A DNA stretch of 39,614 bases, taken from NCBI GenBank assembly GCA_031266025.1, contig JAISBV010000130.1:1-39614 (forward strand). Reading direction: 5' to 3'. The notes under the pieces are model-generated. The model was given only the letters and a program-made list of their open reading frames with translations. It was not told where the DNA came from and ran no database searches. Positions within the stretch are counted from its first letter, which is position 1. Every line of letters begins with the position of its first letter. Below, piece by piece: positions 13,789 through 38,381 of this stretch. The stretch comes from Eubacteriales Family XIII. Incertae Sedis bacterium. GTDB lineage: Bacteria; Bacillota; Clostridia; Peptostreptococcales; Anaerovoracaceae. The translations under genes and the position numbers were made by a program.

Positions 13789-13847
13789 GACTTTGTTCAA
13801 AACTTGCGTATACAAAACAGTAGTTATTTTAAAAGGTTCAGTCAAGA

Positions 13848-13987
13848 CTACTCAAACGCCGCGTCAGTTTTTCTCAGATCGGGTTCTGAGACGAATTTTG
13901 CCCTCGGAACGTACACAGTAGTACGTGAGAAGGCCAAAATTCGAATCAGGTTCCGAAATGGGTAAAAATCACGTGGGGTTTGAGTAG
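13848..13987. repeat. Repeat family B, copy B1: long imperfect hairpin element with terminal inverted repeats
   Basis: Ends ctactcaaacgccgcgtcag.../...aaaaatcacgtggggtttgagtag; inner arms gggttctgagacgaattttg/caaaattcgaatcaggttcc; core ggaacgtac-acagta-gtacgtgag. Second copy at 37943-38201. Confidence 0.85.
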
Positions 13988-14007
13988 TTACAAAAGGAGA
14001 ACCGTAG

Positions 14008-14952: not shown

Positions 14953-15522
14953 GTGAAAAAAATACATATGTTCTTGACGGGTGAACGGGGTGTGGGCAAA
15001 TCCACTGCGATCAGGAAGTTCACGAACCGCCTCGTCTTGCTTCGCGCCGACGTCGGCGGCTTCAAAACAGTAGCCGGCCCGGAGGACGAACGAGGGCGTG
15101 ACGCCGTATATATCATGCCTTACGGAGAAAACGCGGAGTGTTCGCTCGCCTTTTCGAAAGATCGCATGGTTGCGATCAGGGACAGACGCGCGTTCCGATA
15201 CGAGAGCTATGCCGATGTGTTCGACGGTCTCGGCGCGGAGCTTTTACGGCGAGCCGCGCACTGTGATCTGATAATAATGGATGAGCTCGGCTTTATGGAG
15301 ACCGATGCGCTCGGATTCCAAAAGACGGTTTTTTCCCTTCTTGACGGCGCGGCGCCGGTATTGGGCGTGGTCAAGCCGCCGTCCGCGTCTAAGAGCCTTC
15401 CATTCCTCTCCGGCGTACGCTCTCACGAAAAAGTGCGCGTATTCACGGTAACGCCGGAAAACAGGGATGAAACGCCCGATATGCTGTTTGATTTCTTCAG
15501 TTACAGTTCAGAGGTATGTTGA
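14953..15522 (+). CDS. THEP1-like nucleoside-triphosphatase
   Basis: IHMFLTGERGVGKSTAIRKF (P-loop), LIIMDELGFMETDALGFQ. Confidence 0.8.
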   Translation: MKKIHMFLTGERGVGKSTAIRKFTNRLVLLRADVGGFKTVAGPEDERGRDAVYIMPYGENAECSLAFSKDRMVAIRDRRAFRYESYADVFDGLGAELLRRAAHCDLIIMDELGFMETDALGFQKTVFSLLDGAAPVLGVVKPPSASKSLPFLSGVRSHEKVRVFTVTPENRDETPDMLFDFFSYSSEVC

Positions 15523-15579
15523 CGGGATACATGAATGAGGAATTATTCATTCATTTTGTTGCGCGCCTATCCTCGTTTG

Positions 15580-15672
15580 CTTGTTTTACGCGGCTTCAGC
15601 CGCAGTGTAAAACAGGACAGCGTAGCGAACGCAGTGAGCGGAGAAGTGAGCGTAGCGAACGGTGCGCCTTAT
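15580..15672. repeat. Repeat family D: structured 'gcgtagcgaacgcagtgagcgg' element
   Basis: Hairpin gttttac-gcggct-tc-agccgc-agt-gtaaaac followed by ggacagcgtagcgaacgcagtgagcggagaagtgagcgtagcgaac; an analogous module lies inside B2. Confidence 0.7.
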
Positions 15673-15731
15673 GCAAACGATTGGAAGGCGCCATTCGAGA
15701 ACTCCCCGGCTTCAGCCGGTAGGAGTTTACC

Positions 15732-15758
15732 GTCATTCCGGGACAAGCCCGGAATGAC
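15732..15758. repeat. Repeat family C copy: palindromic gtcattccgggacaagcccggaatgac
   Basis: Palindromic sequence; related to 37274-37341. Confidence 0.85.
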
Positions 15759-15856
15759 ATCCTTTTGGATTATAAAGGTGTAATACCTTATTTCGCAGCT
15801 AACCTCTGAACTGTAACATTTTTCAAATTTTTTAATAAATCTTAAACCATTGCACG

Positions 15857-37273: not shown

Positions 37274-37341
37274 GTCATTCCGGGCTTGTCCCGGAATCCA
37301 TATAATATTTTGGATTCCGGGACAGTTCTTCCCGGAATGAC
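37274..37341. repeat. Repeat family C, nested palindrome (gtcattccgggcttgtcccggaatcc...ggattccgggacagttcttcccggaatgac)
   Basis: Long inverted repeat; related 27-bp palindrome at 15732-15758. Confidence 0.85.
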
Positions 37342-37349
37342 GTGCTTTT

Positions 37350-37790: not shown

Positions 37791-37942
37791 AACTGCCTCC
37801 TCACTACTGTTCGTAGATTAGCATACACTGTTCCTGTAATACAAAAACAATTTTATCCTTGGGTTCAGTATAAAGGAAAATCAAAACCGAATCAACCTTG
37901 CCCGTGAAAAAAAGTGGTTACCACTCAAATATTAAATCAAGA

Positions 37943-38201
37943 CTACTCAAACGCCGCGTCAGTTTTCGTTCAGATCGGGTTCTGCCGGCGGTTTTGCCTT
38001 TTTGCCCCGAAGCTTTGCTTCGGCAGGCAAAACGGACAGCGTAGCACACGCAGTGTGCGGAGAAATGCGGCGAAGCTGCATGTTGGCCCCCGGAACGTAC
38101 TCGAAGCTACGTGAGGAGGACAATAACCGACGGCAGGTTCCGAGCCGGACACTTGTGCCCGGAGCTTGCGAACGGGTAAAAATCATGTGGGGTTTGAGTA
38201 G
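37943..38201. repeat. Repeat family B, copy B2 (259 bp, with an internal D-like module)
   Basis: Same termini as B1 (ctactcaaacgccgcgtcag / gtaaaaatcatgtggggtttgagtag) with extra internal hairpins. Confidence 0.85.
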
Positions 38202-38247
38202 TTACAAAAAGTGAAAAAAAGAAATTTAAAAAAGGGGAAAAAAGCGC

Positions 38248-38276
38248 TTGACAGTCAAGATATCGTATGGTATTCT
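38248..38276 (+). promoter_or_regulatory. rrn promoter P1 (TTGACA-17-TATTCT), preceded by an A-rich UP-element-like tract
   Basis: TTGACA 38248-38253, TATTCT 38271-38276; A-rich 38205-38246. Confidence 0.85.
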
Positions 38277-38351: not shown

Positions 38352-38381
38352 TTGACAAAGGGCACACAAACGGCGTATACT
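38352..38381 (+). promoter_or_regulatory. rrn promoter P2 (TTGACA-18-TATACT)
   Basis: TTGACA 38352-38357, TATACT 38376-38381. Confidence 0.85.

Follow-up and report, generated by a model that had tools for sequence, protein, structure and literature searches.

A family of small hairpin-forming transposons with a modular interior in Anaerovoracaceae, including a copy beside an rRNA operon

An element upstream of the rRNA promoters

The window considered here, the whole analysed stretch of 39,614 bp, belongs to an Anaerovoracaceae draft assembly of 162 contigs totalling 2,609,239 bases. Near its right end are the promoters of an rRNA operon, preceded by an A-rich tract and by a repetitive element, B2; a shorter relative, B1, lies elsewhere in the window (Table 1). 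B2 is a complete member of a newly recognised MITE family, small non-autonomous transposons that encode no protein and fold into a long hairpin. All of the palindromes that an earlier note had quoted from 37943-38201 are present there. The element does occupy that interval, but the true mobile unit is wider and has a AAAAAGTG duplication on each side. B2 consists of a 143-bp core and two added modules, a hairpin of 27 bp and a longer piece of 89 bp; the latter, defined by comparison with a 171-bp copy (L032), reads CCTTTTTGCCCCGAAGCTTTGCTTCGGCAGGCAAAACGGACAGCG...GCTGCATGTTG.

Table 1. Features of the B2 locus and position of B1 (window coordinates)
Feature	Position	Strand	Remark
B1, core-length family copy, 142 bp between arms	13847..13988	+	
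Left 8-bp target-site duplication AAAAAGTG	37909..37916	.	Identical to the 8 bp beyond the right end
B2, complete transposable unit, 289 bp	37917..38205	+	Ends GTTACCACTCAAAT ... GTTTGAGTAGTTAC, same in other copies
Left terminal extension GTTACCACTCAAATATTAAATCAAG	37917..37941	+	Extra end-motif copy; conserved among family copies
Left inverted repeat ACTACTCAAAC	37942..37952	+	
Left arm, outer and inner stem, CC-type inner-stem lineage	37953..37996	+	
89-bp D-type hairpin module	37997..38085	+	Not in 143- and 171-bp copies; elsewhere in genome
GGA/GA internal loop, invariant	38092-38094 and 38113-38114	+	
Central hairpin ACGTA...TACGT	38095..38112	+	Adjoins the invariant GGA/GA internal loop; alignments A1, A3
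Right inner arm AATAACCGACGGCAGGTTCCGAG	38122..38144	+	Left-arm partner in consensus structure
27-bp hairpin module, right arm	about 38149..38175	+	Not in 143-bp copies; reverse-complemented on left arm elsewhere
Right end GTTTGAGTAGTTAC	38192..38205	+	162 genome matches
Right 8-bp target-site duplication AAAAAGTG	38206..38213	.	Exact partner of the left one
A-rich tract upstream of P1	38206-38247	+	Tract and promoter recognisable upstream of rRNA in G003
rRNA promoter P1 (TTGACA, 17 bp, TATTCT), intact	38248..38276	+	Read from sequence
rRNA promoter P2 (TTGACA, 18 bp, TATACT), intact by reading	38352..38381	+	Read from sequence

Family copies and their ends

The repeat is abundant far above chance. 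Used as a BLAST query, B2 matches 129 pieces of its own genome, and its 14-base right end has 162 matches with two or fewer mismatches, compared with 32 for a reversed control. Left and right ends could be paired at 65 extracted sites, so that two-ended copies occupy at least 65 dispersed places; lone right ends and lone left ends are also present. The family ends are GTTACyrCTCAAA on the left and TTTGAGTAGTTAC on the right, with the terminal inverted repeat GTWACTACTCAAA at each end, as in a MITE. They are unequal: the end motif is doubled on the left, its two copies usually separated by 22 bp, and single on the right. The second motif sits on the left extension, typically 22 bp ahead of the left arm, and in relatives with a CTCAC-type arm, CTCAC is often found in the left extension as well. 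Most copies have 142-145 bp between the arms, and others have 169-171, 193, 221, 261 (B2) or 309 bp; very short two-ended copies, with 27-76 bp, also occur. MITEs are generally shorter than 300 bp, lack protein-coding genes and exist as many dispersed copies, and this family, at 27-309 bp between arms, is of that kind. Comparison among copies confirms that the outer arms are conserved and supports the view of B2 as an expanded member of the family of B1. No published account of the family was found; the literature returned general MITE and BOX papers.

In the left flanks of three copies (L010, L026 and L056), a lone right end lies immediately ahead of the full copy, and the sequence that follows it recurs after that copy, as if the element had inserted beside the remnant of another. 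On the right flanks of L006, L013, L025, L059 and others, simple ORF calls show a convergent gene whose stop codon is no more than a few bases from the right end, where the TTA in TTAC reads as TAA; this suggests that many copies inserted at the extreme ends of genes.

A covariance model detects the family in nine of 61 genomes, all of the same taxonomic family, in numbers from one to at least 52: at least 52 copies each in the B2 genome and G010, 44 in G004, 33 in G003, 16 in G002, seven in G024, six in G001, two in G016 and one in G033. BLAST adds two further carriers, G042 and G058. The nearest named relatives include metagenome-assembled genomes labelled Clostridiales Family XIII, which taxonomically are Anaerovoracaceae; their isolate names are presumably termite gut sample codes. 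Searches for the family in plasmids and phages gave no matches.

Evidence for mobility

Target duplications were counted by taking GTTAC as the left and TTAC as the right terminus and comparing the eight outer bases in the 65 copies; earlier candidate duplications of 7-13 bp were replaced by 8 bp once these ends had been placed. Exact 8-bp duplications flank seven of the 65 copies, B2 among them, against 0.09 expected from shuffled flanks, and with up to one mismatch the count rises to 11 of 65, against 0.22. An exact duplication is present at a 76-bp copy that lacks the core and, in a relative, at one copy (L105, CGCTCCGC). The family thus has the target-site duplication of a bacterial MITE, 8 bp long. 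Most copies lack a recognisable duplication, for which age is the likely cause.

Empty orthologous sites, also expected of a bacterial MITE, are seen as well. At the position of B1, the two flanking genes in G002, G003 and G004 are about 16-26 bp apart, with no element between them. In a named relative (L188), a family member lies between ribulose-phosphate epimerase and lipocalin-like genes, and none is present there in L181, L182 or L183. Together, the 8-bp duplications of dispersed copies and the empty orthologous sites are marks of transposition.

IS66-type insertion sequences have 5'-GTAA ends and make an 8-bp duplication. The right end of B2, read inwards, is GTAACTACTC, and the duplication length is the same; the right end fits GTAA, while the left is GTTA. 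None of the nine carrier genomes tested (that of B2 and eight others) contains an IS66 transposase (PF03050). The IS256 transposase (Transposase_mut, PF00872) is likewise absent from all nine, and both groups were rejected as helpers. No DDE_Tnp_1 locus in the carriers is bounded by the family ends. An autonomous partner sharing these ends was not found in the genomes; these are fragmented drafts, 69-86% complete, and may lack it.

A modular interior

The family shows the module-wise growth of a bacterial hairpin repeat. Four modules were scored over the copies in a module table, in which three inner-stem lineages combine with the 27-bp module (on the left arm, the right arm or neither) and with D-type modules. 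Each inner-stem lineage is seen without modules, with the 27-bp hairpin on the right and with it on the left; among the tabulated copies, it was never scored on both arms at once. D-type modules occur on the left arm in B2 and L031 and, as the reverse complement, on the right arm in L031, L118 and L130. The 89-bp D module is also found outside the family, at C20, C49, C114 and other places, and at C20 and C49 it lies inside other inverted repeats.

The growth by hairpin insertion that had been proposed for B2 is therefore a family-wide pattern, and the suggested collection of copies into a module graph bears it out. The internal segment is not an unrelated, one-off insertion, since it recurs in L031 and outside the family, and its likeness to the D element of the window holds, with 39 bp of the insert matching that element (15609-15648) at 88%. 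To call such growth unusual was too strong, because BOX elements of Streptococcus pneumoniae grow modularly (PMC3049150) and the larger Correia element has a 50-bp internal segment (PMC2229807).

A conserved fold

Across 36 core copies from the B2 genome, the paired fraction of cells is 97.4%, and compensatory changes are seen at 20 of the 50 base pairs, a number reached in none of 500 shuffles. A second alignment draws on other species, with 21 copies from five genera. Here 96.5% of cells pair and 23 of the 50 pairs show compensatory changes (none of 500 shuffles), in an alignment that leans towards the structure because it was fitted to the covariance model; with the structure slid by one to three columns as a control, four to ten pairs have such changes. 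The unpaired letters GGA, GA, A, U/U and G do not vary across the 57 aligned copies.

Of the two strands, it is apparently the + strand that folds. Its fold is the more stable one in all 36 copies (means of -78.3 kcal/mol for the + strand and -64.7 kcal/mol for the - strand), and G.U cells far exceed A.C cells, by 191 to 28 in the own copies and by 131 to 6 in the relatives. These ratios are tallies over copies and not over independent events, with a few fixed positions supplying many of the G.U cells, and predicting the structure on the + strand tilts the count somewhat towards G.U. Because arm-to-arm copying would lose wobbles and mismatches, we infer selection on a folded + strand, either RNA or single-stranded DNA. 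Compensatory changes between genera, invariant loops and strand asymmetry together are unusually clean evidence that the interior of a MITE is constrained as a folded strand, and they make the old question of why bacterial MITEs fold so strongly testable in a single family. It is the preserved fold that is the notable feature of B2; its position by the rRNA operon is ordinary.

Interpretation and alternatives

B2 is best read, with a probability of about 0.87, as a MITE with unequal ends that landed in the A-rich tract upstream of P1. A DDE-type transposase supplied in trans would cut at the GTTAC/TTAC ends and insert copies into intergenic DNA. B2 would have entered the A-rich tract, leaving the promoter intact, at a site that would previously have read ...GTGAAAAAAAGTGAAAAAAAG... 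with a single AAAAAGTG. Its interior would have gained the 27-bp hairpin and the 89-bp D-type hairpin at joints between stems, a placement by which the main fold is spared. The fold of the + strand may be kept as that of a single strand, either read-through RNA or single-stranded DNA, that aids survival or spread. A conserved strand-specific fold is not something that a plain DDE MITE requires; this counts against the MITE reading, as do the missing autonomous partner and the many copies without a recognisable duplication.

The location itself could point to a role in regulating the rRNA operon, with B2 as an insulator or as an activator upstream of it, tuned by its modules. B2 has the direction of the operon and ends 42 bp before the -35 of P1 (from 38205 to the TTGACA at 38248-38253; about 45 bp had been estimated). 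Such an element should be found upstream of the rRNA operons of the lineage, yet in the sister species G003 the two rRNA leaders that could be recognised, which have a homologous tract and promoter, carry no copy; this agrees in part with what the earlier note had named as a refutation, the lack of the element at other rrn operons. B2 is the only copy among those examined seen at an rRNA operon (the draft has one rRNA leader), and none of at least 64 other two-ended copies was seen at one, their neighbours varying and their orientation showing no bias; by simple and approximate ORF calls, the gene to the right runs in the same direction in 25 cases and the opposite direction in 22. B2 is also flanked by a clean 8-bp duplication. 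A regulatory role is thus highly improbable, and the special tie to rRNA proposed earlier does not hold; an rRNA-specific function was rejected on the sister leaders and the distribution of copies, and the absent orientation bias also ruled out an orientation-specific 5' leader or riboswitch. The presence of B2 beside the operon is concluded to be a chance insertion, neutral or nearly so, and is a warning that a striking hairpin next to an rRNA promoter can be just that.

The fold invites other explanations. A functional regulatory or small RNA riding on the mobile repeat would account for the strand-specific covariation, invariant internal loops and G.U pairs fixed across genera. It is nevertheless unlikely, given the unbiased orientation to neighbouring genes, the absence of the family from most relatives and the existence of copies without a core, including the 76-bp copy with an exact duplication. 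Rfam also offers no relative: at gathering score, B2 has no match and the window gives only 16S rRNA, other matches being weak and at chance level. A route like that of REP/REPIN elements, in which an HUH (Y1) transposase moves the element as a folded single strand, would suit the conserved + strand fold, its fixed mismatched bases and the lone left and right ends, and known Y1 target tetranucleotides resemble the TTAC ends. A fixed 8-bp target duplication and inverted ends are unexpected from Y1 transposases, however, and this route is very unlikely. Stem covariation might instead come from template switching between the arms during replication, with no selection on the fold. This predicts what is seen for the 27-bp and D-type modules, which occur on opposite arms as reverse complements, and template switching is the simplest candidate for how modules cross between arms and may be the source of these swaps. 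As an explanation of the covariation it is quite unlikely, because it should erase wobbles and mismatches, whereas all 57 copies keep the GGA/GA loop and a number of G.U and U.U positions unchanged, with G.U far above A.C in the relatives.

For the MITE reading, a stronger proposal is that the + strand must adopt its specific structure, with the fixed GGA/GA loop and wobble pairs, for the element to spread or persist. This is speculative and rather doubtful. If true, a transposon that is cut as DNA and duplicates 8 bp would also need a folded RNA or single strand for its propagation, and its interior would be a platform for hairpin modules grafted from other repeats onto either arm.

Comparison with known repeats

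BOX elements of S. pneumoniae lie between genes in many copies, have a transcript that folds and may carry internal modules such as boxB (PMC3049150). The B2 family shares the high intergenic copy number, the folding and the optional modules, a likeness of architecture, but its modules are hairpins that either arm can carry, and D-type modules exist outside the family as well. Correia (NEMIS) elements of Neisseria are about 107 or 155 bp, and an internal segment of about 50 bp makes the difference between the two size classes (PMC2229807). Inverted ends, a long hairpin and size classes arising from an internal segment are common to both families; the Correia termini are 5'-TA-3', in contrast to the GTTAC/TTAC ends and 8-bp duplication of the B2 family. 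RUP, another intergenic high-copy MITE, is about 107 bp in S. pneumoniae and is mobilised in trans by IS630-Spn1, on indirect evidence (PMC2229807). It differs from the B2 family, with its 8-bp duplication, in having a TA target and a proposed helper.

Other repeats in the window

The D element (15500-15817) is a second MITE-like element with several internal hairpins. It has 15-bp inverted ends (GTTACAGTTCAGAGG and CCTCTGAACTGTAAC), its GTTAC ends are similar to those of the B family, and its flanks, TTTCTTCA and ATTTTTCA, are alike at six of eight positions. At L152 (374-571), where the contig ends, a B copy has a D-family element (GTTACAGTTCACAGG...) inserted directly behind its left arm. 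A hairpin at 37276-37342, containing CATTCCGGGCTTGTCCCGGAATCC, is part of another repeat that is found inside the D element and at loci including L075, L080 and L152. Finally, two 54-bp direct repeats, 85 bp apart and 89% alike, are located at 146-284.
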